DNA of 64,000 nucleotides, taken from NCBI RefSeq assembly GCF_021389935.1, contig NZ_CP089979.1, positions 3,887,001 to 3,951,000 of the forward strand, given 5' to 3'. The notes under the pieces are model-generated. The model worked only from the letters and a program-made list of their open reading frames with translations, did not search any database and was not told where the DNA came from. The translations under genes were made by a program, and so were the position numbers. Positions 34,686-51,535 of the stretch are shown piece after piece; position 1 is the first letter of the stretch, and the number at the start of each line of letters is the position of its first letter. The DNA comes from Fulvivirga ligni (GTDB taxonomy: Bacteria; Bacteroidota; Bacteroidia; Cytophagales; Cyclobacteriaceae).

Positions 34686-35285
34686 TTAAGAAGTTTTGGC
34701 TTCTACCATCATCATGACCTCTTCAGGGGGCATGTATAGCCTCTTGATTTTGGCCTTGTACTTTTCTGGTAGATCAGAATGGTTGAGTATAAAGTTTTTA
34801 GTGGTAATAATCTTATCTGCCAAACCGTGCTGTATAGCATAAGTATCAGCTACACGCTCGGCTCCAATGATATAAGCCCTTGATATTAAGTATCCTATAC
34901 CGAATTTGATCATAGAAAAAAGTCCTCTGCCCATGTAGTCCATTACATGCCCCAACTCATGCCCAATCCAGCCAAGAATAACGTCAAATGGCAAGGCATG
35001 AATAAAGATTTTCTCATGACCGATTTTAAAGTATCTACTCATAAAGATCACATATTCTCTATTGGCTCTTCTTCCAAACATGCTTCCTATTACCGGCTGA
35101 GCCTGCATAAATGACCTCTTAATATTGTCTTTAAACACGAACCTTATCTTCACATCTACCAGCTCAGGATAATATGACAGTGCCGTCAAAATCTCTGTTC
35201 TTAGGGTATCTGGAATTATCTTATTGGCAGCAAATTGCTCTAACTCAAAGTTAGTGTATTGCGTGGTTTTATCTTCTAGGTTCAT
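34686..35285 (-). CDS. HExxH zinc metallopeptidase-like protein
   Basis: A 199-residue protein with HELGHVMDY at 109-117, the gluzincin zinc motif, and a downstream GAERVADTYAIQHG with Glu143 and Asp147 placed to supply the third zinc ligand. A hydrophobic stretch (about 120-140) may be a membrane anchor or core helix. No signal peptide is seen. It resembles small M48-like peptidases but is shorter than characterised ones. It sits between the racemase (28 bases upstream) and the oxidoreductase (7 bases downstream). A proteolytic role within the pathway of this operon is possible. Confidence 0.75.
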   Translation of the reverse strand: MNLEDKTTQYTNFELEQFAANKIIPDTLRTEILTALSYYPELVDVKIRFVFKDNIKRSFMQAQPVIGSMFGRRANREYVIFMSRYFKIGHEKIFIHALPFDVILGWIGHELGHVMDYMGRGLFSMIKFGIGYLISRAYIIGAERVADTYAIQHGLADKIITTKNFILNHSDLPEKYKAKIKRLYMPPEEVMMMVEAKTS

Positions 35286-35313
35286 AACACTTATTGATTC
35301 AATAAATATGCCA

Positions 35314-36471
35314 TTAATTAGCAGGTTCTCGCGGTATAGCTGCCGGTAAACGGCTCAGCATTTCATTATTTAACAATTGCGTGAAGTCTGTAAAGGAGCT
35401 GATATTGATCACATTATTGTTCTGGCGGCCAATAAGCACCACTTCATCGCCTACATTTACGTCAGGAATGTGTGATACGTCTACCATAAACAGGTTCATA
35501 TTGATCAATCCGACTATGGGTGCTTTTTTTCCTCCTATTAAAACGTGGCCTCTATTAGACAATGCTCTTGGGTATCCATTGGAATAACCTAGTGGCAAAA
35601 CCGCCACACGCATGTCTTGAGTAGCTTGAAAGGCCGTGCCATAACCGATGAACTCACCTGTTTTCACCGACCTTAAATCCATAATGTCGGTTTTCCAATT
35701 AAAAATACGCTTAAGGGCTGTTTCCTTTTGTTTATTGCTTTGTTGAAGGTGCATATAGTAAATGTCCGGGCTTGGCCAAAAACCATATTGAGCCACGCCT
35801 ATTCTAACCATATCGTACAAGGTGTCTTCATAAGCTAAGGCAGCGGCTGAGCAAGCGATATGTTTAAAGTTCGGCATTAGATCCTTTGACTTGCAGATTT
35901 TTAGAAAATCCTTGTATTTGGAGTGCTGAGAATCGATTTTAAATTGATTGGATAGGCTTTCTGCTCCGCCAAAATGGGTGCATAGTCCTTCGAAGATCAG
36001 ATGATCTTTGTTTTTCTTCAAGAAGGTTAGTGCTTTTCCAAATTCACTGGCCTGCATGCCCGTGCGATTAGCACCGGTCTCTACTTCTAAATGAATTTTA
36101 GCCGCTTTGCCAACATTTTTGGCAGCTTCCAGGGCCTTTTCGAGTTTATCATAATTGTATACGTAAAACTCAATATCATTTTCAACTGCCCATTTCATAT
36201 CTTCATTATATAAAATACCCATGATCATGATACTACTATCTTCATTGCGGCATTCCAGCACTTCTTCAGCTTCAAAAGCACTGGCCGTGGCAAAGTGATT
36301 TACACCACACTTTTCAGCCATGGGTACAAATGTTCCTATGCCATGTCCGTAGGCGTTGGCCTTTACCACGGATGAAATCCTTACGTTCTTGCCTACTTTC
36401 TTTCTTATAAAGTTAAAATTGCCCTTTAAGGCGGATTGATTTAAATATATTCGTGATGAATGTTTTACCAT
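35314..36471 (-). CDS. Alanine racemase family PLP enzyme, divergent
   Basis: A 385-residue fold-type III PLP enzyme. The PLP lysine is Lys37 in VVKANAYGHG, the second catalytic base is Tyr277 in FIGYGTAFQA, Arg136 lies in VETGANRTGM and Arg223 in MVRIGVAQYGFWP. The usual CMDQ segment reads NMNL (Met325, Asn326), and the D-T-G segment reads E-T-G, so the substrate pocket may differ. ATG 36471 overlaps the preceding stop as ATGGTAA, which indicates translational coupling; an upstream ATG at 36492 is an alternative. In many Bacteroidota the housekeeping racemase is fused to MurF, so this free-standing copy in an operon with an ATP-grasp ligase may supply a D-amino acid to a special product. Confidence 0.9.
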   Translation of the reverse strand: MVKHSSRIYLNQSALKGNFNFIRKKVGKNVRISSVVKANAYGHGIGTFVPMAEKCGVNHFATASAFEAEEVLECRNEDSSIMIMGILYNEDMKWAVENDIEFYVYNYDKLEKALEAAKNVGKAAKIHLEVETGANRTGMQASEFGKALTFLKKNKDHLIFEGLCTHFGGAESLSNQFKIDSQHSKYKDFLKICKSKDLMPNFKHIACSAAALAYEDTLYDMVRIGVAQYGFWPSPDIYYMHLQQSNKQKETALKRIFNWKTDIMDLRSVKTGEFIGYGTAFQATQDMRVAVLPLGYSNGYPRALSNRGHVLIGGKKAPIVGLINMNLFMVDVSHIPDVNVGDEVVLIGRQNNNVINISSFTDFTQLLNNEMLSRLPAAIPREPAN

Positions 36472-38465
36472 TTTTTTGAAGTTTCTATCCATTGATATGA
36501 TTCTCCCCAGCTATTTCTAGCCAATTTTTCTACTCTTTCTACCTCTGTGTCGGGCACATCGTGTATGCGGTTTTCAGCTTCTAAGGTATTATAATGAAAG
36601 GCATAAAGTCTGGCTGCAAACTGATGAATAGGGAGTGAAGATTCACCATGTTGTTCACCATTGCCATACACTGATGGTTTAATGCCTTGCCCCCAGTCTT
36701 GACGGCCTTCATTATTCGGATTAAGGAAATACACCCTCATTTCTCCTTTGGAATCTTTGTCTACTCTTAACAGCGATACGGCATGGAAACCAAGCATTTT
36801 TCCCGTAGAGGTAGTAACAAAAATACCCACCGGATTAGGATACATAATTTGATGGTTTCCATTAAAATCTGGGTGCGAAGTAGCGTAAAAGATCTTAACA
36901 AAACCTTTGAAATCCACTATAGCATTATATCTATTGTCATAAGCTGATGCAAAGCCTACTTGTATCCACTGTCCATAAAGTGCCGGGTTTACCCATTTAT
37001 GCGGGTCTTCCATTCTTCCTGAGGCACGTAGCATCATCTCATTGTAGATTTTGTCTAGCATACCTACAAGCACTACTGAAACAGAATCGAGATTATAATC
37101 CAGCTTCTGCACTAATCCTTTTCCCACAAGCGATGCCGTTATTTCCTGGCCTTCAAACCTGAATGTCAGGTCGTTATGGGTTGCTGCAGTCATTACCAGA
37201 TTAATTAACTTGGCCGGGGCATGCTGACTCCACATGCTTATACCTCTGGCCGACTGGCAGGTGGGATTGTTACCCTGCCCCACCCCTAACGGCTGACCTA
37301 GCACTCTTATCAGCGCGCCAACCAGGTATTGAAGGGCTGTAATCTTTTCGTCAGGATCTCTTTCTATGTTAGATTTAAGTATCCTGGCCTCTACTTTAGG
37401 ATGCAGCTTTATAGTCCTGATGTTAGAGAGGCCTGATCTTACAGCATCCCTGCCAATAGTTCCTTTCTCCATCATATTACTCAGTCCATAAATGCACTGG
37501 CAATTATATGGCCTTACTGTTTCTAAGATGAGCTCAGAAAGATAATCCTGATATTGGTACCATTTTGCCTCTCCCACTGCACTTACTCCTAAGCATACTG
37601 GCACCACCTTATGATATTCATTCTTCACCAAGTAAAGTAGCAGTAAACCATGAAAAGGACTCACTAAACCGAATCGCAGCATATAATTAGCTGCCTCACC
37701 GGCTTCTCGCAGAAGATCTTGTTCATCAATACTCTTCAGGTAATCCTTATATGCTTTTAAAGATCTATTTACAGTGCCAGCTGTTGGACAATAGATGCTG
37801 TTTTGAAAGTTCAATAGCTCAGCATCAAGTGGTTTGTCTTTGTCCAAATCCATTTTTTCATTGATGAGCGCTATGATCTTTCTCTGCTTCTCTGTAACAA
37901 CTGGCCTTTGTTCACAAATTAATGTTAGCTCTTCAACCAGTTTACTTTTGATTCCATCCAGATGAATTCTTTCAGAAAGGAAATTGAAAAGCGCATGCAC
38001 CTTTTTTAGTTCATGCTCACTCATCATTAATCTGGTTTCTTCAAGCGGTTCATTAAACACGAATTCCAGATTGGCAACTAACACTTCTTCCAGATAATTG
38101 GAGGCATCTCGGGTATTAAAAGCCTGGTCAGCCATTCGTCCTTCGCTTATGGCCAAGATTCTTAACTCACTCAGAAGCTCAATCGTAGAGCTGGGATGCC
38201 CACTTTTATAAGTGCCATTTACTAATGATGGCACTAGTTTATCAGTATTATTCCATGCTGTATCTTCGAAGATTCCTGCCTGAGTAATCTCCTCAATCTT
38301 ATTATAAACAAAGTCGATACCCTCATGAGTATCGACTATTAAATCTATTTGGCTCATAAACTTAGTGGCTTTGTCGCCTCTGGTAAGTTTAGTGGCCTCT
38401 TTGAGCTCATTTAAGACCTCTGCCAACCGATCATATGATTGTTGGATCATTCCATTTTCCACCAT
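36465..38465 (-). CDS. Large unknown protein with papain-like Gln-Cys-His-Asn signature
   Basis: A 666-residue soluble protein whose family I do not recognise. The N-terminal 390 residues are mostly helical. The C-terminal part has QGNNPTCQSARGISMW with Gln397 and Cys403 six residues apart, as for Gln19 and Cys25 of papain, then GFHAVSLLRVDKDS with His561, and VYFLNPNNEG with Asn582, 21 residues after the histidine. Order and spacing match the oxyanion Gln and the Cys-His-Asn triad of papain-fold hydrolases and transferases. There is no signal peptide. It lies 18 bases after the ATP-grasp gene and overlaps the racemase start, so it probably acts on the product of those enzymes. The function is inferred from motif pattern only. 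Confidence 0.75.
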   Translation of the reverse strand: MVENGMIQQSYDRLAEVLNELKEATKLTRGDKATKFMSQIDLIVDTHEGIDFVYNKIEEITQAGIFEDTAWNNTDKLVPSLVNGTYKSGHPSSTIELLSELRILAISEGRMADQAFNTRDASNYLEEVLVANLEFVFNEPLEETRLMMSEHELKKVHALFNFLSERIHLDGIKSKLVEELTLICEQRPVVTEKQRKIIALINEKMDLDKDKPLDAELLNFQNSIYCPTAGTVNRSLKAYKDYLKSIDEQDLLREAGEAANYMLRFGLVSPFHGLLLLYLVKNEYHKVVPVCLGVSAVGEAKWYQYQDYLSELILETVRPYNCQCIYGLSNMMEKGTIGRDAVRSGLSNIRTIKLHPKVEARILKSNIERDPDEKITALQYLVGALIRVLGQPLGVGQGNNPTCQSARGISMWSQHAPAKLINLVMTAATHNDLTFRFEGQEITASLVGKGLVQKLDYNLDSVSVVLVGMLDKIYNEMMLRASGRMEDPHKWVNPALYGQWIQVGFASAYDNRYNAIVDFKGFVKIFYATSHPDFNGNHQIMYPNPVGIFVTTSTGKMLGFHAVSLLRVDKDSKGEMRVYFLNPNNEGRQDWGQGIKPSVYGNGEQHGESSLPIHQFAARLYAFHYNTLEAENRIHDVPDTEVERVEKLARNSWGESYQWIETSKKW

Positions 38466-38483
38466 TAATTTTGTTTGCTTTTA

Positions 38484-39704
38484 TTATAAATAGAAGTCAA
38501 CATTCTCATAATGCAAGAGTAGTTCTCGCATTCTATCAGGATCTTCACCTTTAAAGTTTACGGTACCAAAGTGATTACCGAAACCAGATCTATCACTGAT
38601 TTTCTGTGTTGATAATGGTGGTACCAGGTTATGATCCAGGAAGTAAGATTCCTCTTTTAACTCTTCAGGTATCTCCAGTTTGGAAATAGAGTTTTTGTGA
38701 GGGTAAATCATTACGTTTCCGTAGAATGTTTTAGGTCTGGCATCCATAGGAGGCAATATTTCCTGAAGCTCCTCTTCAGTAAGATTCGGATCATGAATCT
38801 GAACGAAGGCTGCCAGAGCATCAAAATCATACGCTTTAGCTGCTAGTTCCAGAATATGACCACCAGGAATTCTACATGCAGTCTCTCCAAAGCTTATTTC
38901 ATTTTTATCGGTAAGGAACCACTCTGGGTGTACCATGCCGTATTCAATGCCAAATATGTCTACTAGTTTCTGTACTTCCTGTAGTATCTGATCTCTTTTG
39001 GTATGCAGATAGTTTCCTTCAGGAATGAAGTTAGAATAACCTAGCTTCACGTATTCTGTAATATTTAGAAATCTAACTTTACCTCCATGTACGAAGGCCT
39101 CGCATGAAAACTCCTGACCTGACAAGTGACTTTCTGCCAGACATGGAAAATCTTCGTCTAACACTTTATTGTCAATGTCCTCCATGGAGCGTAGCAAGCG
39201 GTGGCCTACCGTTCCTGCAGAAGCGAAAGGTTTTATATGCACCCAGCTATCTTCTTCACCGTCTACCTGAAGGTTGGCCTCATTAAGCCTTTTCATGAAA
39301 GCTTTAACACCCTCTTTATTGTACACTTCTTCAAATAGCCCTACTCTGAGTCCTCCTATTAAAGCCTTTCTTTTCATCATTGCTTTATTTCTAAATAGGA
39401 AGGCACGGTTTAAAACTCTTGGGTCACCTCTATACATTGAATTCAAAGCCCCTGCCCATTCTACAGTTTCTTCGAAAAGTGGAACAGCTACATCTACATT
39501 ATAAGGTTTAAGTTTTTCAAGAAGATCTAAACTGTTAGAACTATCACTCCATTCGTTAAGCTGGTAAGGCACGAAAGGGATGTTATTCTCTTCTGCGTAA
39601 TTAGCAAAGTCCGGAAATGATACTACTACAAATGGTTTGTTGAGTTTTTGCATGCTTTCTATTACAGGCAAACTCCAGCCCATAAGCGCAAAACACTTAG
39701 CCAT
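38484..39704 (-). CDS. ATP-grasp family carboxylate-amine ligase
   Basis: A 406-residue ATP-grasp enzyme, expected to join a carboxylate to an amine through an acyl phosphate. The N-terminal pre-ATP-grasp domain begins MAKCFALMGWSLPVIESMQK. The ATP-binding lysine and flexible loop are in HIKPFASAGTVG (Lys158), a second lysine region is SGQEFSCEAFV, and the magnesium site is HPEWFLTDKNEISFGETACRI (His259, Glu261, Glu274) followed by Arg278 and GGHI, as in amino-acid ligases of the BL00235 type. ATG 39704 is chosen because the longer frame would run into the cold-shock gene terminator. It is the first gene of a six-gene operon. Confidence 0.88.
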   Translation of the reverse strand: MAKCFALMGWSLPVIESMQKLNKPFVVVSFPDFANYAEENNIPFVPYQLNEWSDSSNSLDLLEKLKPYNVDVAVPLFEETVEWAGALNSMYRGDPRVLNRAFLFRNKAMMKRKALIGGLRVGLFEEVYNKEGVKAFMKRLNEANLQVDGEEDSWVHIKPFASAGTVGHRLLRSMEDIDNKVLDEDFPCLAESHLSGQEFSCEAFVHGGKVRFLNITEYVKLGYSNFIPEGNYLHTKRDQILQEVQKLVDIFGIEYGMVHPEWFLTDKNEISFGETACRIPGGHILELAAKAYDFDALAAFVQIHDPNLTEEELQEILPPMDARPKTFYGNVMIYPHKNSISKLEIPEELKEESYFLDHNLVPPLSTQKISDRSGFGNHFGTVNFKGEDPDRMRELLLHYENVDFYL

Positions 39705-39820
39705 GATTGTCTTATTTTTTGGTTCTAATAATCTATTTTCTACTATTACTAAGGGTTTAAAGGAGTGTAATGTTCCGAAAAATTTGGATTTTTCCGTTTT
39801 ATGGGTAAAAATTGGGCATA

Positions 39821-39846
39821 AAAAAAAGCCGACAGATACTGTCGGC
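39821..39846 (-). terminator. Intrinsic terminator of the cold-shock gene
   Basis: A perfect 8-base-pair stem GCCGACAG/CTGTCGGC with a 3-base loop (39828-39846) is followed on the minus strand by a T7 run. It separates the cold-shock gene from the ATP-grasp operon. Confidence 0.88.
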
Positions 39847-39882
39847 TTCCTCAAATGTTAATACTTTAATATATATTGATAA

Positions 39883-40074
39883 TTATACTAATCTAACATT
39901 AACTGCATTCAAACCTTTACGACCTTCTTGTAATTCAAATGTCACCTCGTCATTCTCACCAACTTCGTCTACTAATCCTGAGATGTGCACAAAATACTCT
40001 TGGTTGTCTTCGTTGTCCTTCACAAACCCATATCCTTTTGAGTCGTTGAAGAACTTAATTTTTCCTTCTTTCAT
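39883..40074 (-). CDS. Cold-shock domain protein
   Basis: A 63-residue OB-fold nucleic-acid-binding protein. It starts MKEGKIKFFNDSKGYGFV, with the RNP1 motif KGYGFV, and RNP2 as EYFVHIS. It binds single-stranded RNA and DNA and acts as an RNA chaperone. Length and sequence are those of a standard bacterial Csp. It has its own strong promoter and terminator, so it is a single-gene unit. Confidence 0.97.
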   Translation of the reverse strand: MKEGKIKFFNDSKGYGFVKDNEDNQEYFVHISGLVDEVGENDEVTFELQEGRKGLNAVNVRLV

Positions 40075-40096
40075 TATTAAATATTGTTATTGGACC

Positions 40097-40126
40097 CAAA
40101 GGTATGATAAAAATCAAGCTCTCAAA
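40097..40126 (-). promoter_or_regulatory. Canonical Bacteroidota promoter of the cold-shock gene
   Basis: On the minus strand the -33 element TTTG (40123-40126) is followed by 18 bases and the -7 element TACCTTTG (40097-40104), an exact TTTG-N18-TAnnTTTG. The start site would be near 40090, about 16 bases before the ATG. Confidence 0.85.
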
Positions 40127-40261
40127 GAGAATTAAGTATTTATATTTTAATTTATATTTTGACTTTTGTTTTTCACGTCATTAATTTTCTGAAAAACTGT
40201 ACCAAGAAGTTCTTTATTCTATTATATTAGGCATTTATATACATTACAAAACTATCAACTA

Positions 40262-41500
40262 ATGCCCAATGAATGTGCTCTGCACCTGACTGATGCAGTG
40301 CTGGAAAGTAAGCGAAGTCTTACGGATCCTATTGCTGATCAGGTTGTTGCTCAAATTATCGAATCAGGATATGAAGAGAAAATCAATGATATTTTTTATA
40401 CACTGGTAAGAACTAATGGCTTCGATGGTGAAGCTTTTTCCAGCTTGCCTGATCCCATCTCACAGCTGTTAGTTAATTATTTTGATGAAACTTCTCATCT
40501 GCCTTCATGGGCAGATCCTGTTTTAATAGCTCAAGGTGAAGCCGTGTTTAGCGAATACGGCCCTGAGATTTCAATGATACTAAATGTAAAGTCACTGCCA
40601 CTTTGCTATGCCTGTAGCAATGGAGCTGAAGTACTTTACATGACGGGCAGACTTACTGAGCGTAGCGGTTCTCTTAATCCTTTGGCGAGAAGGCTCATGG
40701 AAACATCTCAGATGATTATGAATGCCCTGGCTCCGGGAGGAATGTCTCCAACGGGAAATGGCATCATAACCATCCAAAAGGTAAGGTTGATACACGCTTC
40801 TATTCGCTATTTTATACAACATGAAAGATATAACCCAAAAGGCTGGAATGCTGATACTTTGGGTAAGCCTATTAATCAGGAGGATCTGGCTGGTACGCTG
40901 ATGTCCTTTGGGCCATTAGTGCTGAAAGGTCTTCAGCAAATGAACATTGAGCTTAGTGATGCCAAGATTAAAGGATATATGCACGCCTGGAAGGTAATTG
41001 GCTATCTGATGGGTGTAGAAGATTTGTTTTTAACTGATGATTATGCAGAAGGTTGGAATATAGGTGTGGCCATCATGAAACATCAGGCTAAGGCGTCGGA
41101 TCATGGCAAGGAGTTAACTAAGGCATGTATAGATTTTTTAAATAGCATCATACCTGGCAATTTGTTCGATGAGATGCCTGAGTATATGATCTGGTACTTT
41201 TCGCAAGATGTGTCTGAAGCTATCGGCTTAGATATAGCTGCCGCTCTGGGCGTGCGCGAAGGTGACCAACTTAGAGATAAGGTGATGCTGAAATTATGTG
41301 ATCTGTTTTTTAGAGATATGGGTAAAGTGGGTGATCACAGTAAAATCATTTTTGGAATTAGCTGCTACCTGAACAGAAAGGTGCTCCAGGGATTTTTACA
41401 CCATTTTAATGATAACAAAAATGTGAGATTTTCAATCCCTCCTTCTCTACAGGATGATTGGAAGCTTAACGAGGAAATAACTACTCCTTATACTTTTTAA
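40262..41500 (+). CDS. MpaB/Lcp-like oxygenase family protein (DUF2236)
   Basis: A 412-residue mostly helical protein. The motifs KVRLIHASIRYFI (173-185, with His178) and GKPINQEDLAGTLMSFGPLV (201 onward) are those of the DUF2236 family that includes fungal MpaB, which cleaves a prenyl side chain in mycophenolic acid synthesis, and latex-clearing protein Lcp, a heme oxygenase that cleaves polyisoprene. His178 may bind the metal or heme. No signal peptide is seen. It opens a plus-strand run with two membrane proteins and a large sensor kinase; a neighbour resembles membrane terpene cyclases, so an isoprenoid substrate is likely by inference. Confidence 0.82.
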   Translation: MPNECALHLTDAVLESKRSLTDPIADQVVAQIIESGYEEKINDIFYTLVRTNGFDGEAFSSLPDPISQLLVNYFDETSHLPSWADPVLIAQGEAVFSEYGPEISMILNVKSLPLCYACSNGAEVLYMTGRLTERSGSLNPLARRLMETSQMIMNALAPGGMSPTGNGIITIQKVRLIHASIRYFIQHERYNPKGWNADTLGKPINQEDLAGTLMSFGPLVLKGLQQMNIELSDAKIKGYMHAWKVIGYLMGVEDLFLTDDYAEGWNIGVAIMKHQAKASDHGKELTKACIDFLNSIIPGNLFDEMPEYMIWYFSQDVSEAIGLDIAAALGVREGDQLRDKVMLKLCDLFFRDMGKVGDHSKIIFGISCYLNRKVLQGFLHHFNDNKNVRFSIPPSLQDDWKLNEEITTPYTF

Positions 41501-41520
41501 ACTTTACTCAATTAACATTC

Positions 41521-42183
41521 ATGATCAACACACCTAATAAGCAAACAACCTATTTCATTGTTATAACACAGGCCATTATGGTTTTATGGTCTGTAGCTAG
41601 TTCTTTACTCCATGCCGGGCCGCTATATGCTTACATTATTACAGTGGGTTCATTTGTAGTGTATGCCATTTATGCGTTTCTGAAAAAGAACGATTTAATT
41701 AAGAAATTAATGATTTTTGGCTTTGTAGCCGGTGTTCTGGAGCTGTGGGCGGATCATTATAGTGTATCGGTGATAAAGACGCTGATATACCCAGCGCATG
41801 AAGGAATTATAGTTAACTCACCTTATTATATGCCTTTCTCCTGGGCCATTGCCTTGGCTCAATTGGGTTATTATGCGCTTTTGCTTACTGATAAGAAAGG
41901 CGTATGGGTAGCTGCAGCTGTCATCACCATTTCAGGTGGGTTTTACATTCCTCTTTATGAACACTTGGCTAAGGATGCCAACTGGTGGTACTATCAGGAT
42001 TGTAAAATGCTCTTTAATGCACCTTACTACATCATTTTATGTGAAGCGCTCCTATCAGCATCCTTGCCATTTTTAACCAAATGGATAGCAGGAAAGAATA
42101 TGGGATATTCATTGATAGCTGGAATCATTCAAGGTGTGTGGATTTACCTGAGTGCGGTGATTGCTTATAACATTGTAGCTTAA
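41521..42183 (+). CDS. Multi-pass membrane protein of unknown function
   Basis: A 220-residue protein with about six or seven membrane helices and little outside the membrane. Polar residues fall at helix ends or inside helices: VLELWADHYSV (about 72-82), YPAHEG and FYIPLYEHLAKDANWWYYQ. Such Glu/Asp/His sites inside a compact helical bundle recall small membrane enzymes of lipid or terpenoid metabolism, but I cannot name a family. It starts 20 bases after the oxygenase gene and ends 10 bases before the terpene cyclase-like gene. Confidence 0.75.
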   Translation: MINTPNKQTTYFIVITQAIMVLWSVASSLLHAGPLYAYIITVGSFVVYAIYAFLKKNDLIKKLMIFGFVAGVLELWADHYSVSVIKTLIYPAHEGIIVNSPYYMPFSWAIALAQLGYYALLLTDKKGVWVAAAVITISGGFYIPLYEHLAKDANWWYYQDCKMLFNAPYYIILCEALLSASLPFLTKWIAGKNMGYSLIAGIIQGVWIYLSAVIAYNIVA

Positions 42184-42193
42184 TTAAAGTATC

Positions 42194-42874
42194 ATGGAGA
42201 GCAACAATCTTTGTGCAGAATACCCTGAGTTTAGTAAGATTATCAATATCTGTGATTATAGTATTACAGAGCTTGCATTGGTATTTATAGGCACTATTTT
42301 CTGGGTGGTGGTATATGTGATCATCATCAGAAATAGCATTAAGAATAAATACGTGGAAATGCCAGTGCCTGCAGCCGCTTCCAATCTGGCGTGGGAGTTT
42401 GCCTGGGGCTTTTTGTTTACTACGGACATGGGCCTACTCTTTGTTTGGGGGCTTAGAATATGGTTTATATTAGACGTGTTTATCTTCTATAACGTACTGC
42501 GTTATGGCGATAAACAGATCAGTACACCACTGTTGAAAAAATATTTTAAACCCATAGAATTGGCCTCAGTCTTATTGTGGACATTTGGGTTTTATTTCTT
42601 TATTAAAGAAGGTTATGATACTAGCATGGGAGCCACATCGGCCTACATCATTACGATTATCATGGCTTCCTTGTATAGCATTTTCTTTTTGTCTAGCAAT
42701 TTTAAGCAAGGCTACTCTCTCACTAATGCCTGGTGTAAGATGTTAGGTAATGCTCTTATGAGCGTGTTTGTATTTATACATTATCCGGATATGCACTTTT
42801 TGCAGTTTACCACCATTGTGGTATTCATTCTGGATGTAGTTTATATACCATTGCTTAAGATGAAATCGCAATAA
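42194..42874 (+). CDS. Seven-helix protein resembling PaxB/Pyr4-type membrane terpene cyclases
   Basis: A 226-residue integral membrane protein with about seven helices. Near the second helix it has AASNLAWEFAWGF with Glu68, and in the last helix FILDVVYIPLL with Asp214. In the fungal membrane terpene cyclase Pyr4 an acidic pair at nearly the same places (Glu63 and Asp218) is needed for protonation-driven cyclisation, and the NxxWE context is shared by the PaxB family. Size and topology also agree. Assignment rests on motif and topology recognition; a structural match would be needed to exclude another small membrane family. It is 10 bases after one membrane protein gene and 43 before the sensor kinase. 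Confidence 0.6.
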   Translation: MESNNLCAEYPEFSKIINICDYSITELALVFIGTIFWVVVYVIIIRNSIKNKYVEMPVPAAASNLAWEFAWGFLFTTDMGLLFVWGLRIWFILDVFIFYNVLRYGDKQISTPLLKKYFKPIELASVLLWTFGFYFFIKEGYDTSMGATSAYIITIIMASLYSIFFLSSNFKQGYSLTNAWCKMLGNALMSVFVFIHYPDMHFLQFTTIVVFILDVVYIPLLKMKSQ

Positions 42875-42917
42875 GCGAGTATAGTTGTAAAAAATTATTG
42901 GTTGGTAGAAGTTGATA

Positions 42918-45900
42918 ATGGATAATATTCTTAAAAATTCGAAAAAAATAGCCGAAGGAGGCAATTCTCTTATTTATCTCAGTGAGTTAAATGACTATAA
43001 AAAAAGTGTAGTTATTAAAATTCCTAAGAAGAAGAGTTCTTTATTATCAGCTGAATATCAACTACATAACGAATATAACTACCTCAAATCATTAAACCTT
43101 CATGGTGTTCGTAAGCCTATTGAGAAGATCATAATAGATCACCACCCGGCTTTAGTGTTAGAGTATTTTGAGGCCGCCACGCTTAGAGAGTATATCAATA
43201 CTCGTCCTTTCAATTTGCTGGACTTTCTTAAAGTGTCCATTGAGATATGCAAGACCTTAAGTGATATTCACCATCATAACATTATTCATAAGGATATTAA
43301 CAGCCATAATATCCTGATCAATAAAACTGGTGAGTTAAGGATCATTGACTTCGGCATTGCCTGTAAATATAATCAGCACAGTGATCTTACTAATAGCCCG
43401 GAAATGCTAGAAGGTAATCTGGCCTATTTGTCTCCGGAACAAACCGGAAGGATGAATCGTGAGATCGATAAGAGATCAGACCTATATTCATTAGGTGTGG
43501 TTCTCTATGAATGGTGCGCGGGTAGTCTACCCTTCCCTACTAAAGATCCTATGAAATTGATTCATAGTCATTTGGCTGTGAATCCTGAACCAGTTAATCT
43601 GCTGAATACAGAGGTTCCGAATAACATATCAAAGATCATTTTAAAGCTTCTTTCAAAAGATAAAGATGATCGTTACCACTCTGCTGACGGGCTACGTTCA
43701 GACTTGGAATTAGCTTTGAAGCAATTTTCAGAACACGGTTATATCGAGGGGTTCCCTCTTGGTATGTCTGACTTTTCTGGTCAGCTATCAAGGCCTCAGA
43801 AGCTCTATGGCCGTGAGAAAGAGTTGCATACGCTGGTGCAGGCTTTCCATAAAGCCTATAATAAGGAAAAGCAGGTGGTCTTAATTTCCGGACCATCCGG
43901 CAGCGGTAAATCTGCACTTGCCATAGAGGTAAACTCACAGTTTTCTGACAAAAGTGGCCATTTTATTTATGGTAAGTTCGATGAACTCCATAGAGACAAG
44001 CCCTATTTAGCTATAAAAAATGCCTTCAGGAAGTTAGTCAATAACATTCTGGCAGAAGATAAAGAAGTAAGACAAGCCTGGAAGAAAAGCATTCTGGAGG
44101 AAGTAGGTAAAGAAGCTCAACTGCTCATTGAGGTTATTCCTGAATTAGTCAACATTTTAGGGCCACAGCCCGAAGTGCCGAAACTAGGATCTGAAGAGAC
44201 TAAGAACAGGTTTAGCTACATATTTAGACAATTTATTAAGGCTGTAGCTACTGCATCTCATCCATTGGTATTGTTTATAGATGATGTGCAATGGTCAGAT
44301 CCGGCATCGCTTACTTTGCTGAGTCAGATTACCAATGATGCGTCTATTCCATACCTTTTCATTATTCTTACCTTAAGAAGTGAATCGGATAGTGCTATTC
44401 ATTCCGGTAATTTCAAATTTACAGATCAGCTGGAGTTATCAGTGCTTAGCCCACAGCACGTGCAAAGTTTGCTGGTAGATAGTCTGTCAAAGAAATGCCC
44501 TGATGCTGAAAAGCTTGCACAGGTCATTTACATGAAAACAGGTGGTAATGCCTTCTTTGTCAACCAGTTCATTCAGAAGATATATCAGGAAGGCTTCCTG
44601 TTCTTCAATACAAAGAAGCAGCAATGGGACTGGAAGCTTAAGGAAATAGAGAGTTTGCAGGTCACAAAAAACGTGATCGATCTTTTACATACAGAGCTGA
44701 AGAAATTACCGGCAGAATGTCTTGATCTCTTGCAAACAGGGTCATGCCTAAATGAATACTTTAACCTAAAAATTATCTCATCTATTCACTCTGCCAGTGA
44801 AGAAGACATCAAGAGCTACTTGTGGGATGCTGTTGAAAAAGGCTTTATTAAGGTCAGTGTGAACCAAAAGGTGGTAAATAATACCGAAGACTACGGTCTG
44901 GGAATAGAATATTCATTTGCACATGATAAAATAAAGAAGAGTGCTTATGAGTCGTTATCATCATCCCAGACACTTGATCGCCATTGGAAGATTGGCAAAT
45001 ACCTGTATAACAACCAGGATAAGTATCATGTAAGTGTATTCGATATTGTTTTTCACTGGAATATAGGAATAGAGCACGCCTGGTCAGAGAAGCTAACCAA
45101 TGACTTGCTTAATCTCAATTTCCTGGCGGGAAATGAAGCAAGAAGTTCAGCGGCATACATGAATGCTCTGGAATATTACCGCCATGCTCTTAAGATATCA
45201 ACTGGCGATATTTGGACTGAGTTTTACGATTTAGCGCTGGCGGTTCACACGGGTGCTGCAGAAACGGCTTTCCTTACGGGTAAGATGTCTGTGATGCAAG
45301 AGCACATTATAGAAGTATTGGCCCATGCTAAGAATATACATGAGAAAATAAAAGTATACCAGATACAAATACAAGCATATATTGCTCAAGGTCAGTCAGT
45401 TAAGGCGGTTGATGCCGCGCTGGGTGTATTAGGTCAGTTAGATATTATTTTCCCGGCTAAACCTACCACAGTTCAGATTGGGAAGGAGCTTTTGAGAACC
45501 AGTATCAAGCTGAGCAGAAAGAATAAGAAGCAATTGCTTACGCTCCCTCCCATGACTGATCAAAAAGCGCTGGCCAGCATGCAAATTATGGCAAGCGTAG
45601 GTTCTGCTGTATCAAGAACTACACCTACCCTATTCCCGCTGATGGTGTTTAAGATGATACACTTATCGCTCAAATATGGTAATTCCATGGAGTCTATCCC
45701 CAACTATGGCGGATATGGCATTATTCAGGTGGGAGCGCTTAAAAACTTTAAGGCAGGGCTCAAATATGGTGAGCTCACAAGGGAATTGCTGGAGAGACAT
45801 AATCCTGATCCAATTAAAGCTAAAACGCTTATTGTATACTACAGCTTTGTTCACCCATGGAAATATGATCTTAAAGAATCATTAAAGCCACTGATGGATA

Positions 45901-48083
45901 CCTACCATATTGGTATGGAAACGGGTGATCATGAGTTCGCTGCTTCTGCCCTTATGGTAAATGGCTTTTATAGCTATTTCAGTGGAGAGGTGCTATCTAA
46001 GCTGGATGATAAAATGGCTGCACATGCTCAAAAGATACAGCAGCTTAATCAGGAGTTGCTATATACCCAGCATAGCATTTTCCATCAGGTCATTCAAAAC
46101 CTGCTTGGCAAAAATAACAAGCCTGAGGTGCTAGAGGGCAATCAATTTAGTGCTTCAGAAGTCATTACAGAGAAATTTAGAGCGAACAATTCCGCCGCAG
46201 CTTTCTATGCAGATTTTCATACTTTGGTTTTATCCATTTGGTTTAAAAAGTTTGAAAATGGCTACAAATCCATAGCACTGCTCGATAAAAATCTTAATGC
46301 TGTACTGGGCACTATCTTCGTTCCCCAATATCATTTTTATCGTGGAATATCATTGTGCTCCGGATTTCATACCTTATCTGAGAAAGAGAAGAAACAAGCA
46401 CGTAAAAAGATTACCGAGGGAGTTAAAGTACTAAAGACCTGGTCTGATAGCTGCCCTTATAACTATCTACACATGTATTATTTGCTTTCAGCAGAGTCTC
46501 TGAGAGTAAAAGGTAAAAACCCTAAGGCCAAGCTTTTCTATGATCTGGCTATTGTAAGTGCTAATAAGCACGGTTTCTTAAATGACGAAGCCTTATGTTA
46601 CGAGCTGGCGGGTGAATTTTGTAAAGCCAGCAAAGAACACTATCCATTTGAGATATACCTTAAGAAAGCCCATGATACCTACATGCATTGGGGTGCTGAA
46701 ATAAAGGCTAGAAACCTTTCAGACCAGTATCCTTTCATTAGCTTGAATTCTGTCGGTCACATTAATGTAGAGGAAAGTTTGAGTACTACCACCGGCAATT
46801 ATTCTAACCTTGAGCTATCGTCTATACTTAAAGCTTCCACTGCAATAGCCAGTAAAATACAGCTTGATAGACTTCTGGAAACACTCTTAAAAATTGTGTT
46901 GGAAAATGCAGGCGCTCAAAGCGGATATTTACTTAGCGTTAAAGATAACGATCTGATAATTAGGGCTAAAGGACACGCAAGTTCAGAAAAGGTAGAAGTG
47001 TTTGAGGACTTGAGATTAGCTACCTATGATCACCTGCCATCTTCTATTATCCAGTATGCGGGTAAAATTAGAGAAGAGATTATAATGGATGATGCTTCTT
47101 TGGAACACAGGTTCTCTAATGATCCTTATTTTCATGGCAATGATGTGAAGTCCATATTATGTAGCCCCATCATTAAGCAAAATGAATTAATAGGAATTAT
47201 TTATCTGGAAAATAACCTCATACCAGGTGCATTTACGCAAAAGCGGCTGGAGATGCTGCAGTTGCTTTCTGGGCAGATAGCGGTTTCATTAGATAATGCT
47301 TTGCTTTATGAGAATATGGAGCAAGCCGTGAAAGAGAGAACGCAAGAAATCAAGGCCCAGCAGGAAGTGCTGAAGGAATATAATAAAGATTTGTTGGCCC
47401 TTAATGATGAAAAAGATCACCTCATAAGTGTAGTTGCTCATGATTTAAGGAGTCCGCTGAATCAGATAAAAGGTATGGTTAACCTGATTAAACTTACCTC
47501 CCAGGATAAATCTAACGAGCAGCTGGAGTTCATAAACATAGTTCTGGACAGCACTGAGCGTTTAGGGAATATGATTAGCAGGATTCTGGATGTGAATGCC
47601 ATTGAAGCGAAGAAGATTGATCTGAAGTTTGAGATGGTGAACCTCTCTGATATGATGCAGAAGCTTCTAAATAACTTCAAGCTTACTGCTAATGAAAAGA
47701 AAATTAATTTAGAACTGGATATAGAAGGAAATTACCTGTCTAGCTTGGATAAAAACTACACCATTCAGGTGTTTGAAAATATCTTATCGAATGCCCTTAA
47801 ATTTTCACCATCGGGTAAATCTATCTTAGTGAATGTAAAAGGCCATAATCAGAATGTTCTGGTGAGCATTAGGGATCAAGGTCCTGGTATCAGTGAGGAA
47901 GATATGAAGAGACTGTTTATGCCTTATCAAAAGCTGTCAGCTCAGCCTACTGCTGGTGAGCAGTCTACAGGGCTCGGACTTTCCATTGTAAAGAAATACG
48001 TTGAAGCTATGGAGGGTAAAATCTGGTGTGAAAGCACTGAGGGTGAAGGTGCTACCTTCTTTGTGGAGTTCAAGAAGTTTTAG
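42918..48083 (+). CDS. Trifunctional Ser/Thr kinase, ATPase and sensor histidine kinase
   Basis: A 1721-residue signalling protein. Residues about 5-270 form a Hanks-type kinase (VVIKIPKKK; HKDINSHN with Asp126; IDFGIA; LSPEQTGRMN). An AAA-type ATPase follows (GREKELHTL; Walker A SGPSGSGKSA near 322-331; Walker B LVLFIDDVQWSD), then about 800 residues of helical repeats, a GAF domain at about 1290-1440 and a histidine kinase with His1508 in SVVAHDLRSPLNQ, N-box NILSNALKFS and G motifs DQGPGIS and GLGLSIVKK. There is no membrane helix. ATG 42918 is chosen over TTG 42912. Proteins of this layout are known from cyanobacteria and other bacteria, with mostly unknown inputs. It follows the terpenoid-type genes by 43 bases. 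Confidence 0.95.
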   Translation: MDNILKNSKKIAEGGNSLIYLSELNDYKKSVVIKIPKKKSSLLSAEYQLHNEYNYLKSLNLHGVRKPIEKIIIDHHPALVLEYFEAATLREYINTRPFNLLDFLKVSIEICKTLSDIHHHNIIHKDINSHNILINKTGELRIIDFGIACKYNQHSDLTNSPEMLEGNLAYLSPEQTGRMNREIDKRSDLYSLGVVLYEWCAGSLPFPTKDPMKLIHSHLAVNPEPVNLLNTEVPNNISKIILKLLSKDKDDRYHSADGLRSDLELALKQFSEHGYIEGFPLGMSDFSGQLSRPQKLYGREKELHTLVQAFHKAYNKEKQVVLISGPSGSGKSALAIEVNSQFSDKSGHFIYGKFDELHRDKPYLAIKNAFRKLVNNILAEDKEVRQAWKKSILEEVGKEAQLLIEVIPELVNILGPQPEVPKLGSEETKNRFSYIFRQFIKAVATASHPLVLFIDDVQWSDPASLTLLSQITNDASIPYLFIILTLRSESDSAIHSGNFKFTDQLELSVLSPQHVQSLLVDSLSKKCPDAEKLAQVIYMKTGGNAFFVNQFIQKIYQEGFLFFNTKKQQWDWKLKEIESLQVTKNVIDLLHTELKKLPAECLDLLQTGSCLNEYFNLKIISSIHSASEEDIKSYLWDAVEKGFIKVSVNQKVVNNTEDYGLGIEYSFAHDKIKKSAYESLSSSQTLDRHWKIGKYLYNNQDKYHVSVFDIVFHWNIGIEHAWSEKLTNDLLNLNFLAGNEARSSAAYMNALEYYRHALKISTGDIWTEFYDLALAVHTGAAETAFLTGKMSVMQEHIIEVLAHAKNIHEKIKVYQIQIQAYIAQGQSVKAVDAALGVLGQLDIIFPAKPTTVQIGKELLRTSIKLSRKNKKQLLTLPPMTDQKALASMQIMASVGSAVSRTTPTLFPLMVFKMIHLSLKYGNSMESIPNYGGYGIIQVGALKNFKAGLKYGELTRELLERHNPDPIKAKTLIVYYSFVHPWKYDLKESLKPLMDTYHIGMETGDHEFAASALMVNGFYSYFSGEVLSKLDDKMAAHAQKIQQLNQELLYTQHSIFHQVIQNLLGKNNKPEVLEGNQFSASEVITEKFRANNSAAAFYADFHTLVLSIWFKKFENGYKSIALLDKNLNAVLGTIFVPQYHFYRGISLCSGFHTLSEKEKKQARKKITEGVKVLKTWSDSCPYNYLHMYYLLSAESLRVKGKNPKAKLFYDLAIVSANKHGFLNDEALCYELAGEFCKASKEHYPFEIYLKKAHDTYMHWGAEIKARNLSDQYPFISLNSVGHINVEESLSTTTGNYSNLELSSILKASTAIASKIQLDRLLETLLKIVLENAGAQSGYLLSVKDNDLIIRAKGHASSEKVEVFEDLRLATYDHLPSSIIQYAGKIREEIIMDDASLEHRFSNDPYFHGNDVKSILCSPIIKQNELIGIIYLENNLIPGAFTQKRLEMLQLLSGQIAVSLDNALLYENMEQAVKERTQEIKAQQEVLKEYNKDLLALNDEKDHLISVVAHDLRSPLNQIKGMVNLIKLTSQDKSNEQLEFINIVLDSTERLGNMISRILDVNAIEAKKIDLKFEMVNLSDMMQKLLNNFKLTANEKKINLELDIEGNYLSSLDKNYTIQVFENILSNALKFSPSGKSILVNVKGHNQNVLVSIRDQGPGISEEDMKRLFMPYQKLSAQPTAGEQSTGLGLSIVKKYVEAMEGKIWCESTEGEGATFFVEFKKF

Positions 48084-48660
48084 AACCAGCTTTTAGTTGG
48101 TTGTAATCTGCTTCGGTGTCTACATCAAAGGTTTTATCATTGGCCTCTAATATTATAATATCCGGGGCATTTTGCTTGAGTATAGTTTTAGCTCCTTGAT
48201 CACCAGTAAGTTGCTGAAGGTCTTTGAAGTATGCTTTCGGGAAGAGTGCCGGTACTCCTGGCCGTCCGTCATATGACGTAGCTATGATTTTATCGTTGTT
48301 AGATCGGAACTCCCGAATCATATCATTTAAGTACTCGGTATCCACCAGAGGTTGATCTCCAAGTGTGATAAGCAAAGCATCCAGATGCTCGCAGTGTTCA
48401 ACCGCACAGGCTATCGAGGTTCCTAATCCGTGCTGCCAGCTATCGTTGATCAGTACCCGAACTGCACTGCTGTTAATTTCACTCTGGATTAAAGTGCTGT
48501 TGGCTCCCAAAACACAAATTACTTCTGCAGCATGGCTTTTAAGCGATTCTTGAACCACATGGCTTAGCATACTTCCCTTTCCGAGAGGAAGCAGTTGTTT
48601 GGGTTTCCCCATTCTGCTGGAGCTACCGGCGGCTAATATAATGATGCCGATCTTAGGCAT
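48070..48660 (-). CDS. MocA/MobA-like molybdenum cofactor nucleotidyltransferase
   Basis: A 196-residue nucleotidyltransferase of the MobA/MocA fold. The NTP-binding signature is ILAAGSSSRMGKPKQLLPL (8-26); GDQPLVD is the metal-binding motif and GRPGVPALFPK the family's substrate loop. MocA transfers CMP to molybdopterin for xanthine dehydrogenase-type enzymes. Its start overlaps the end of the XdhC-like gene by 8 bases, so the two are co-translated. It overlaps the convergent kinase gene by 14 bases. Confidence 0.9.
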   Translation of the reverse strand: MPKIGIIILAAGSSSRMGKPKQLLPLGKGSMLSHVVQESLKSHAAEVICVLGANSTLIQSEINSSAVRVLINDSWQHGLGTSIACAVEHCEHLDALLITLGDQPLVDTEYLNDMIREFRSNNDKIIATSYDGRPGVPALFPKAYFKDLQQLTGDQGAKTILKQNAPDIIILEANDKTFDVDTEADYNQLKAGSKTS

Positions 48661-49663
48661 GAATCCTTGATTTGTTTCTTAAGGAGAATGCTTCCCTATG
48701 ATTTTTAATGGCTAGAATCTCTGAGATGATGGCAATGGCAATTTCTTGTGGAGTAACCGAACCAATATCTATTCCTGCAGGCCCAAAGATGGCATTTAAG
48801 AAATCCGTATCTAATTCAGGATTAAGATCTATCAGTTCATTGAAAAGCTTTTCTCTTCTTCTCTTCGCTCCTAACAGACCTAGATAAAAGAATTGCTTCT
48901 CCTGTAAAGCCATAAGAAACTTTAAGTCCTGCGAATAGCTGTGTGTCATTAAAACTACTGCTGTTTCAGCGTCTATGGTTAGCTCTGAGGCATGTGTTGG
49001 GTCTAAATGAATGATTTCCTTGGCTCCTGGAAAATTGATTAGGCCTTTGGGGTCTTTAGGTGAATCAATGATGGTGACCTCCCAGCCTAACAATGAAGCT
49101 GCAGTACAGAGCTGTACGGCATCATGTTCTGCTCCAATAATTATCAACTGAAACAGCGGTGCCATTTCCTGGCTAAATGTGAGAGGAGATTCTTGATGGC
49201 TAAATTCCTGGCCGGATAAGGGAAATATTTGAGAATCGATATTTACATGTGAACCAATATTCTCATGGTAGCCTTCTTCCAGCAAGTATTCAGAATGAAT
49301 GATAAACGGCTTTCTTCTAGAGAATGCTGTTTGTAGTTCTTCCTTCAAGCTTGTAATGAAATCTAACTTTTCTAGTAAGATGTAAAGTATTCCTTCGCAG
49401 CCCAATCTATATCTACCATCATAAGTCATCATTTTAGGTGTGCCGCTTTCAAAAACTGATTGGGCCTGCCTTACAACCTCAGATTCCACACAGCCACCAC
49501 TTACTGCTCCTGTCATGTCACCATCTTCACTGATCAGCATTCTTACTCCAGGCTTTCTATAGGAAGATCCTTCCAAATGCACTACGGTAGCTAGAACGCA
49601 GGATTTTCCATTGGATTGATAACTTATAGCGGTGTTAAAGATGGTTTTAAACTCGTGGGTCAT
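48653..49663 (-). CDS. XdhC/CoxF family protein
   Basis: A 336-residue two-domain protein. The N-terminal XdhC domain has GSSYRKPGVRMLI and GAVSGGCVESEVV; the C-terminal Rossmann-like domain has LIIIGAEHDAVQLCTAASLLGWEVTIID and LGLLGAKRRREKL. XdhC binds molybdenum cofactor, helps its sulfuration and passes it to xanthine dehydrogenase-type enzymes. No molybdoenzyme subunit lies in this window, so the client enzyme is encoded elsewhere. Confidence 0.93.
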   Translation of the reverse strand: MTHEFKTIFNTAISYQSNGKSCVLATVVHLEGSSYRKPGVRMLISEDGDMTGAVSGGCVESEVVRQAQSVFESGTPKMMTYDGRYRLGCEGILYILLEKLDFITSLKEELQTAFSRRKPFIIHSEYLLEEGYHENIGSHVNIDSQIFPLSGQEFSHQESPLTFSQEMAPLFQLIIIGAEHDAVQLCTAASLLGWEVTIIDSPKDPKGLINFPGAKEIIHLDPTHASELTIDAETAVVLMTHSYSQDLKFLMALQEKQFFYLGLLGAKRRREKLFNELIDLNPELDTDFLNAIFGPAGIDIGSVTPQEIAIAIISEILAIKNHREAFSLRNKSRIHA

Positions 49664-49741
49664 TTATGACTTCTTAATGTTTGTGACTGTAAGTATATAC
49701 AGCAATTAAAATTAAATGTTTTGGAGCAGAAATCATTAAAT

Positions 49742-49769
49742 AAAAAAAGGCCACTGTTAAAGTGACCTT
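49742..49769 (-). terminator. Intrinsic terminator of the helicase gene
   Basis: An 8-base stem AAGGTCAC/GTGGCCTT with one mismatch and a 7-base loop is followed on the minus strand by a T7 run, 6 bases past the helicase stop. Confidence 0.8.
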
Positions 49770-49774
49770 CTATA

Positions 49775-51535
49775 TTATCTTCTTCTTCCGCCGCCGCTTC
49801 TGCGACCTTTTCCGCCGCCTCCTCCGCCGCCTCTGCCGGATGAACGTTTTCTATCATTTCTCTTGAACGATCTGCCGTCATTTCTATCGCTGCGTTTACC
49901 GCCGCCATTGCCACCACCGCCGCCACCGCGGTTCGCTGCGTTCACTCTGATCTCTCTGCCGTCTAGCATTAAGTCAGTAAAGGCACCATCCATTTGAGAT
50001 AAGTCCTCTTTCAATACTTCAAAATAAGATCTTCTCTCTTCTATAGTTATTTCACCGATAGACTTTTTCTTAATTTCAGAATATGTCATCACAAACTCAA
50101 TAAGATCAGACTTATTAAAGCCATCCATCTTACCAATGTTGATGAAGAATTTCTTATAAGGACTTTTCTCAGACTCACGGCTTGATCTGCTATCAAGGCT
50201 TACATTATCTAAGTCCGCTACATCAAAACCTTGATCTCTAATACCAAACTTATCCAGCTCTATAGTAAGGAGTTTATCTATAAGTTCTTCTTTAGAAAGT
50301 TCGTTAAAAAGCTCGTAAATATCTGACTGATGGTCTTTTATAGCTTGAACATCAGTTTTTACATCCATTACACGCTTAGCCCATGTAATCAATTTTTGAT
50401 TCTCAACAGCTACTGGGCTTGGTAATGTATATTCAGAGAACTTTAGGTTAAGCTTCTTTTGCATAAAGTTCAGCTTTCGCTGATCTGAGGAGCTTACCAA
50501 AGCCAATGAGATACCAGTTTTTCCAGCTCTACCTGTTCTACCACTACGGTGAGTGTAGTATTCAGTATCATCAGGCAGTGCATAGTGAATAACATGGGTA
50601 ATGTCATTTACATCAATACCTCTAGCGGCTACATCAGTACATAGAAGAAACTCCAGGGTGTGGTTTTTAAACCTTTTCATTACCTGATCTCTCTGGGCCT
50701 GAGATAAGTCACCATGAAGTGCATCTACAGGTAAACCTCTTTTTTGAAGTTGCTCTGTAAGACTTTGTGTATCTCTTTTGGTTCTGCAAAAGATGATACC
50801 TCTCATGTCAGGCTCAAGCTGAATGATGTATTGCAGTAAATTCGGTTTGTCTTTCGCTTTAACCGCAAAATACTGGTGATCAATATTTGTATTTACAACA
50901 TTGCCAGAATCAATCTTAACCTCATTAGGGTTATTCATGTATTTCTTTACAATGTTCTTAATTTCTTTAGCCATAGTAGCAGAGAATAACCAGGTGGCCT
51001 TCTCTCCTTCTGTATATGATAAGATGTGATCAAGGTCTTCTCTGAAACCCATGTTAAGCATTTCATCTGCCTCATCTAACACTACAAAACGAACACTCGC
51101 TAAGTCTACTGCCTTTCTGTTAAGTAGATCTAACAACCTACCAGGCGTGGCTATAACTATTTGAGGCTTCTTCTTTAAAGCCTTAATCTGAACCTGAATA
51201 GAGGCTCCACCGTAAACCGTTACGATGTTTACACCATCCATGTATTTAGAAAAAGATTCCAACTGCTGCCCTATTTGCTGACCAAGTTCTCTGGTTGGTG
51301 CAAGTACTACAGCTTGTGTTTCTTTACGCGCAGGATCTATTGATTCCAATAATGGAAGGCCAAAAGCAGCGGTTTTTCCTGTACCAGTTTGTGCTAAGCC
51401 TATAAAATCACTATCCCCCTCATTAATAAGTACCGGAATTGCTTGTTGCTGAATTTTGGTGGGTGATTCAAAATTCAGTTCATTAAGAACTTTCAGCAAA
51501 GGATCTGAAAGTCCGAGATTGGAAAAATTTGTCAA
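49775..51535 (-). CDS. DEAD-box RNA helicase with RGG-like tail
   Basis: A 586-residue ATP-dependent RNA helicase. It has the Q motif (FESPTKIQQQAIP), motif I QTGTGKTAAFG, Ia PTRELGQQIG, II DEAD, III SAT, and the C-terminal motifs IIFCRTKRDT, TDVAARGIDV and HRSGRTGRAG. A DbpA-like RNA-binding region (FFINIGKMDGFNKSDLIEFV) and a Gly/Arg/Lys-rich tail follow. TTG 51535 is preferred over GTG 51559, because the GTG overlaps a -7 promoter element and homologues begin just before FSNLGLSDPLL. Likely roles are cold-adapted RNA unwinding and ribosome assembly, as for CsdA/DeaD proteins. Confidence 0.95.
   Translation of the reverse strand: MTNFSNLGLSDPLLKVLNELNFESPTKIQQQAIPVLINEGDSDFIGLAQTGTGKTAAFGLPLLESIDPARKETQAVVLAPTRELGQQIGQQLESFSKYMDGVNIVTVYGGASIQVQIKALKKKPQIVIATPGRLLDLLNRKAVDLASVRFVVLDEADEMLNMGFREDLDHILSYTEGEKATWLFSATMAKEIKNIVKKYMNNPNEVKIDSGNVVNTNIDHQYFAVKAKDKPNLLQYIIQLEPDMRGIIFCRTKRDTQSLTEQLQKRGLPVDALHGDLSQAQRDQVMKRFKNHTLEFLLCTDVAARGIDVNDITHVIHYALPDDTEYYTHRSGRTGRAGKTGISLALVSSSDQRKLNFMQKKLNLKFSEYTLPSPVAVENQKLITWAKRVMDVKTDVQAIKDHQSDIYELFNELSKEELIDKLLTIELDKFGIRDQGFDVADLDNVSLDSRSSRESEKSPYKKFFINIGKMDGFNKSDLIEFVMTYSEIKKKSIGEITIEERRSYFEVLKEDLSQMDGAFTDLMLDGREIRVNAANRGGGGGGNGGGKRSDRNDGRSFKRNDRKRSSGRGGGGGGGKGRRSGGGRRR

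Follow-up and report, generated by a model that had tools for sequence, protein, structure and literature searches.

A membrane terpene cyclase and its oxidoreductase partner are encoded beside exchangeable signalling proteins in Fulvivirga ligni and other bacteria

The window analysed here, a stretch of 64,000 nucleotides from the Fulvivirga ligni genome (contig NZ_CP089979.1, positions 3,887,001 to 3,951,000), carries a conserved gene unit in which an MpaB/Lcp-type oxygenase, a DUF6989 membrane protein and a Pyr4-like transmembrane terpene cyclase (TMTC) are followed by a giant kinase. In many bacteria, cyclases of this family are linked to an oxidoreductase partner and to signalling proteins whose class is swapped among relatives, and the enzymes retain both their family membership and their catalytic and haem residues. 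The finding is larger than that of an earlier note, which read the locus as a small terpenoid cluster: the enzyme pair is linked to exchangeable signalling outputs. The enzyme families named there stand, whereas the simple cluster does not, since a signalling protein forms part of the conserved unit and relatives carry other outputs in its place. With belief and doubt about evenly balanced, we infer a substrate, a product and a ligand-binding step, whereby the enzymes would modify an isoprenoid of the membrane to yield the ligand that the co-encoded transducer senses.

Three open reading frames lie on the forward strand at 40262-41500, 41521-42183 and 42194-42874, separated by 20 and 10 bases, just as first described. 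All three proteins score above the curated Pfam cut-offs (MPAB_Lcp_cat, E 4.2e-14; DUF6989, 2.3e-42; Pyr4-TMTC, 1.3e-17), and none of them has an NCBIfam match. The end of the cluster had been set too early, at 42874: the conserved unit also takes in the kinase gene at 42912-48083, which begins 37 bases past the end of the cyclase gene. A scan of 12 genes of the window (34686-52888), two of which (36465-38465 and 34686-35285) are without a Pfam match, recognised no prenyltransferase or polyprenyl synthase. A separate minus-strand run at 35314-39854 encodes an alanine racemase, a 666-residue protein without a Pfam match and a sub-threshold ATP-grasp protein, and is possibly a small amino-acid ligase pathway.

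The arrangement is above chance: the cyclase occurs in four of the 15 Fulvivirga genomes (G000, G001, G008 and G014), and all four keep the order MpaB, DUF6989, cyclase, giant kinase. The window's genome has one copy each of the cyclase (the only PF25129-type match), the MpaB protein (the single PF09995 match) and the giant kinase at full length, and the three are neighbours. Three further genomes (G002, G004 and G011) carry MpaB-DUF6989 without a cyclase, followed by a membrane histidine kinase in G002 and G011 and by the contig end in G004, so that DUF6989 accompanies MpaB in seven of seven genus genomes, with the output exchanged.

The 226-residue protein at 42194..42874 (+) had been taken for a Pyr4-family cyclase, and the profile search against PF25129 (64.7 bits, cut-off 27), the family test proposed for it, bears this out; its predicted model (pLDDT 93.8) has seven helices of 17-28 residues. 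Seven residues that are important in DmtA1 are apparently present (W37, Y41, N64, W67, E68, D214 and Y217), as matched by spacing to the DmtA1 mutagenesis; E68, Y41 and N64 correspond to DmtA1 E60, Tyr33 and Asn56 at a constant offset of 8. The positions mutated in DmtA1 also include D94, E133 and C58. In DmtA1, the E60A and E60Q substitutions abolish complementation and D214N leaves partial activity. The proposed pair of Glu68, in its NLAWE context, and Asp214 is indeed there in the window, and it fares unequally beyond it. Glu68 (codon 42395..42397, +), taken as the equivalent of the catalytic E60, is Glu in 20 of the 24 rows of alignment A1, which were not chosen by motif and represent 24 of 30 cyclase ORFs, whereas Asp214 (codon 42833..42835, +) is Asn in all three Fulvivirga congeners. 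At positions outside the search motif of the named-genome scan described below, Y41 is kept in 68 of 68 rows, Y217 in 62 and D214 in 61, the other seven having Asn; Y41 is also present in 24 of 24 A1 rows, the two row sets having five genomes in common. N64, W67 and E68 are uncountable on the scan rows because the scan motif contains AWE. In four loci of family f36 (L046, L050, L054 and L056) Ala replaces the catalytic Glu, and these have no adjoining signalling gene. Catalytic residues were looked for in PMC11109268 as well, and none were found there.

The first gene (40262..41500, +) encodes a 412-residue protein that had been described as MpaB/Lcp-like, an assignment confirmed by its PF09995 match, by its similarity to rubber oxygenase 5o1m (phmmer E 2.3e-13; profile E 4.1e-21) and by its haem-site residues. 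The near-invariant haem residues given for LcpK30 in PMC6311187, R164, T168 and H198, correspond to R144, T148 and H178 of the window protein (codons 40691, 40703 and 40793, +). Among 43 MpaB-labelled proteins of cyclase loci, the window's included, the Arg and the His are present in all 43 and the Thr in 41; the position of the distal haem ligand of Lcp, K167, is E147 in the window protein and is Lys in none of the 43. In a separate case, L169:4087-9165 (G425), an MpaB domain lies within a 1692-residue protein that also has caspase (C14), GDSL lipase and DUF5995 domains; a 7TMR-DISM histidine kinase comes next.

The middle gene (41521..42183, +) encodes a 220-residue DUF6989 (PF22497) membrane protein, in which E74, D78, H79, E147, H148 and E175 are invariant (alignment A8, seven rows); the family scores above cut-off in two of 395 phylum genomes. 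A role as a second cyclase received no support from profile-profile comparison (probability 3.8). Against the PDB, the seven-row alignment gave no match and a four-row alignment only a chance-level one, and a structure model (pLDDT 43, from a three-sequence alignment) was set aside. A single distant match, on a Halorarius plasmid beside metal ATPases, is uninformative.

The giant kinase gene (42912..48083, +) encodes 1723 residues in which Pfam recognises a protein kinase domain (residues 9-259, 42936..43688, Pkinase E 1.7e-36), an AAA_16 (STAND) domain (297-485, 43800..44366, E 3.6e-35), a GAF domain (1318-1460, 46863..47291, E 1e-11) and HisKA plus HATPase_c (1501-1566 and 1618-1721, 47412..48074, E 1.6e-12 and 4.4e-25). 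The ORF starts with TTG at 42912, with an ATG at 42918, and hydropathy predicted no transmembrane helix. The GAF domain is a candidate ligand-binding site. Although 80 places in the genome match this protein, 79 do so only from residue 1376 on; the first 1300 residues match once, making it the only full-length copy. Giant kinases with a common front end close in a histidine kinase (window), a SpoIIE phosphatase (L052) or a Guanylate_cyc domain (L059). Elsewhere in the genus, L204:827-6052 (G003) encodes a giant kinase of full length that has 34% identity to that of the window; the 14 kb examined there contain no MpaB, DUF6989 or cyclase.

To place the cyclase in a wider context, two collections were used. 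Of 395 phylum genomes searched for the family, 24 contain the cyclase. Fourteen of these belong to family f36, in which 13 lack a signalling gene next to the cyclase; among the other ten loci, the cyclase has a signalling output as its neighbour in seven, and the remaining three comprise an MpaB-cyclase pair running into a contig end, a UbiA-cyclase-FAD cluster (L051) and a locus without clear context. A scan of named genomes, with a motif built from nine cyclases (seven of them beside MpaB), yielded 70 cyclase loci in ten phyla (NCBI); the window protein alone as query gave no match in named genomes. In the 66 loci with a called cyclase ORF (four had none), the preceding gene, irrespective of strand, is MpaB in 33 and AmOx in 16; the combination of MpaB and cyclase is thus no one-off. 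AmOx denotes an amine-oxidase/desaturase-like flavoenzyme; for the two tested, the nearest NCBIfam models are HpnE, zeta-carotene and phytoene desaturase, all far below cut-off. The next gene, again irrespective of strand, has an output domain in 31 of 64 cases versus 6 of 231 genes at least five places away (Fisher p 2e-18; the loci are not all independent). For a subset of 31 of the 70 loci, all with partner and output on the same strand, no more than 30 bases separate partner from cyclase in 25 and cyclase from output in 28, with gene starts called automatically.

The outputs beside the cyclase include HK, HisKA_2, SpoIIE, Guanylate_cyc, 7TMR-DISM and giant STAND forms, and Pfam recognises the HisKA_2 kinases and the 7TMR-DISM kinases or phosphatases among them. 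UbiA, P450, FAD and AmOx neighbours were all sought with small home-made models. Within four genes of a cyclase, UbiA was labelled at L051 alone, the locus on which its model was seeded; this Bacteroidota locus (L051:8239-11008, G164) consists of a UbiA prenyltransferase, a Pyr4-like cyclase and FAD_binding_3, and is apparently a true meroterpenoid cluster. Tandem cyclase-labelled genes occur at L076:1555-2933, where Pfam confirms both, and, by home-made model, at L103 (from 8974, with the next gene) and L098 (from 1908, with the next gene).

A first tree of 87 hand-labelled rows, from which L069, L070, L077, L085 and L115 had been dropped as copies of L008, L009, L052, L011 and L059, respectively, and L136 and L138 as too short, places the window on a signal side of 76 rows. 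Of these, 61 have an oxidoreductase partner (42 MpaB and 19 AmOx) and 63 a signalling gene nearby, which is a recognised HK, SpoIIE or nucleotide cyclase in 57 and is recognised only by a kinase, AAA or 7TMR part in six; the output lies on the opposite strand in 12 rows, and 13 rows have no signalling gene, one of them cut by a contig end. Partner and output occur together in 54 rows, nine of which come from genomes of the window's phylum or from the window itself. These paired rows span five phyla, namely Bacteroidota and Pseudomonadota and, with one locus each, Acidobacteriota, Gemmatimonadota and Thermodesulfobacteriota; only a partner or only an output is seen in Fibrobacterota, Spirochaetota, Myxococcota and Ignavibacteriota, and the Actinomycetota locus L123 has neither of the two.

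On this tree the output class (HK, SpoIIE or nucleotide cyclase) changes at least 12 times over 58 labelled rows and the partner at least three times over 61. A more careful tree of 77 rows, with ten long-branched or near-copy rows removed, gives at least nine changes of output (53 rows) and at least two of partner (57 rows). It separates the signal side from a biosynthetic-type UbiA/orphan side with 100/100 support and in 100% of 200 bootstrap trees, the two sides having been named after the first tree was seen; the orphan-side row L043 does carry a PAS kinase. Both trees contain several long branches that come together, which leaves single placements unsure. The order of the genes is variable as well (L078, L103, L129 and L136).

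The smaller outputs have a further feature in common, an N-terminal membrane domain of about 200 residues found with SpoIIE, HK, HisKA_2 and nucleotide-cyclase outputs. In hhalign comparisons of this domain the SpoIIE-HK pair reached 99.65, HisKA_2-SpoIIE 98.0, HisKA_2-HK 97.7, nucleotide cyclase-HK 95.4 and nucleotide cyclase-SpoIIE 91.0, and HisKA_2-nucleotide cyclase only 74.8; one such output (L126) has a Pfam MASE7 match. An HK-DISM value of 100% was rejected as the product of a common HisKA region in the cut rather than of the membrane domain. The MASE7-like domain is not a dedicated receptor, because it is also found in genomes without a cyclase (17 of the 22 that carry it, among 395).

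Taken as a pathway, these genes could work as follows. A soluble MpaB-type haem oxygenase, or elsewhere an HpnE/carotene-desaturase-like flavoenzyme, would oxidise an isoprenoid chain already in the membrane, and the seven-helix Pyr4-like cyclase would then protonate and cyclise the oxidised chain; in Fulvivirga the second membrane protein, DUF6989, may also participate. The lipophilic product would be sensed as a ligand by the transducer of the same gene unit, putatively the soluble Ser/Thr kinase-STAND-GAF-histidine kinase in the window and, elsewhere, a membrane histidine kinase, SpoIIE phosphatase or nucleotide cyclase, several of them with the MASE7-like domain. A more constant enzyme pair with exchanged outputs is what is expected if the pair makes an input that the outputs read. 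Both partner types, one from a family of prenyl-cleaving haem oxygenases and the other a flavoenzyme, point to isoprenoid chains. Since no prenyltransferase was recognised beside the pair (for UbiA, by one home-made model), the enzymes probably draw on a common membrane isoprenoid. Carotenoid or squalene supply offered no clue to the substrate, since PF00494, found in 29 of 30 cyclase genomes, has a phylum baseline of 194/198.

Several observations count against such a signalling module. Asp214 is Asn in all three cyclase-bearing congeners and in seven of 68 scan rows; G002 and G011 keep MpaB-DUF6989 and a histidine kinase without the cyclase, and the giant kinase of G003 stands alone. An adjacent signalling gene is absent from 13 of the 24 phylum-draw loci (f36) and from 13 of the 76 signal-side rows; the six rows with only part of an output recognised, the 12 with the output on the opposite strand and the variable gene order count on this side too. 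The giant kinase of the window lacks a membrane domain, and the MASE7-like domain is not confined to cyclase loci. An unlikely but appreciable alternative is that the seven-helix protein is a membrane receptor or adaptor, no longer (or no longer mainly) an enzyme, through which haem or flavin proteins that sense O2, NO, redox state or oxidised lipid would act on the output. The PQ-loop fold of the KDEL receptor, SWEET and cystinosin is among the closest known systems, yet a common fold says nothing on function, and a pure receptor would not need the DmtA1 residue set that is kept at Y41, Y217 and D214 across the scan rows. As judged from the sequences, conservation of the catalytic residues makes an enzyme more likely than a receptor without catalysis.

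If the protein is an enzyme, its product could still be something other than a signal. Slightly less probable than the receptor is an output that serves as the ordinary regulator of a small biosynthetic operon, the product being a membrane or secreted terpenoid such as a pigment, membrane stabiliser or antibiotic. Regulators are often encoded beside the genes under their control, and the 31 tabulated loci have enzymes and output a short distance apart on a single strand; against this, local regulators are not usually nucleotide cyclases, SpoIIE phosphatases or giant kinases, and one oxidoreductase plus one cyclase make a thin pathway. Among transcription factors at cyclase loci, the search covered response regulators. 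We consider improbable, and already disfavoured, the original reading of a minimal meroterpenoid cluster in Bacteroidota that a kinase adjoins by accident. The two enzyme families do work on isoprenoids, and L051 is a Bacteroidota example of a UbiA-TMTC-FAD cluster; however, the tree groups L051 with the opposite side (100/100), and the kinase neighbour is kept in four of four genomes, with other outputs taking its place elsewhere.

Pyr4-like cyclases are known as natural-product enzymes. By profile, the window cyclase belongs to the same family as DmtA1 (drimentine), XiaE/XiaH (xiamycin) and the zigralone cyclase, and it apparently has the DmtA1 residues; unlike at the window locus, those bacterial enzymes are encoded in natural-product clusters with prenyltransferases. 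MpaB acts in mycophenolic acid biosynthesis and Lcp is secreted; both have the PF09995 domain in common with the window oxygenase, whose haem residues correspond to those of LcpK30. The window protein differs in its Glu at the distal-ligand position of Lcp and in adjoining a cyclase and a kinase. The domain order of the giant kinase is, we presume, that of Hstk-type Ser/Thr-histidine kinases (Ser/Thr kinase-AAA-GAF-histidine kinase), from which it differs in its position behind a cyclase and in having relatives with a C-terminal SpoIIE or nucleotide-cyclase output. In the quorum-sensing pairs LuxM-LuxN and CqsA-CqsS, the synthase gene stands beside the sensor kinase gene, and the proposed cyclase module would follow an analogous logic. 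The putative synthase and the transducer are conserved together across cyclase loci, apart from exceptions such as the signal-side rows without an output; unlike those pairs, the module would employ isoprenoid chemistry, a putative signal and at least three unrelated classes of output enzyme.

A literature search that covered few subscription papers returned no paper linking the Pyr4-like cyclase family to signalling. The main text of one survey (PMC13307353), in which 1107 bacterial Pyr4-like homologues were narrowed to 264 near terpenoid genes, is without the terms Bacteroid-, MpaB or signal-, and its filter probably removed loci like the window's.

Genes apparently able to oxidise and cyclise an isoprenoid, placed beside interchangeable signalling proteins, suggest an undescribed use of terpenoids as an internal or cell-to-cell signal. 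The broadest form of this idea is more tentative than the ligand reading itself, though a serious possibility: a widespread new kind of bacterial signalling, in which a cyclised isoprenoid, formed in the membrane from a housekeeping polyprenyl lipid by the Pyr4-like cyclase with an oxygenase or flavoenzyme, would act as an autocrine or intercellular hormone, one input serving kinases, phosphatases and nucleotide cyclases. If true, this would constitute a new class of bacterial terpenoid signals with exchangeable outputs in five phyla, and would give a testable function to some share of the 843 bacterial homologues that the product-focused survey filtered out. Nucleotide cyclase or kinase activity would then provide a read-out for finding the molecule.
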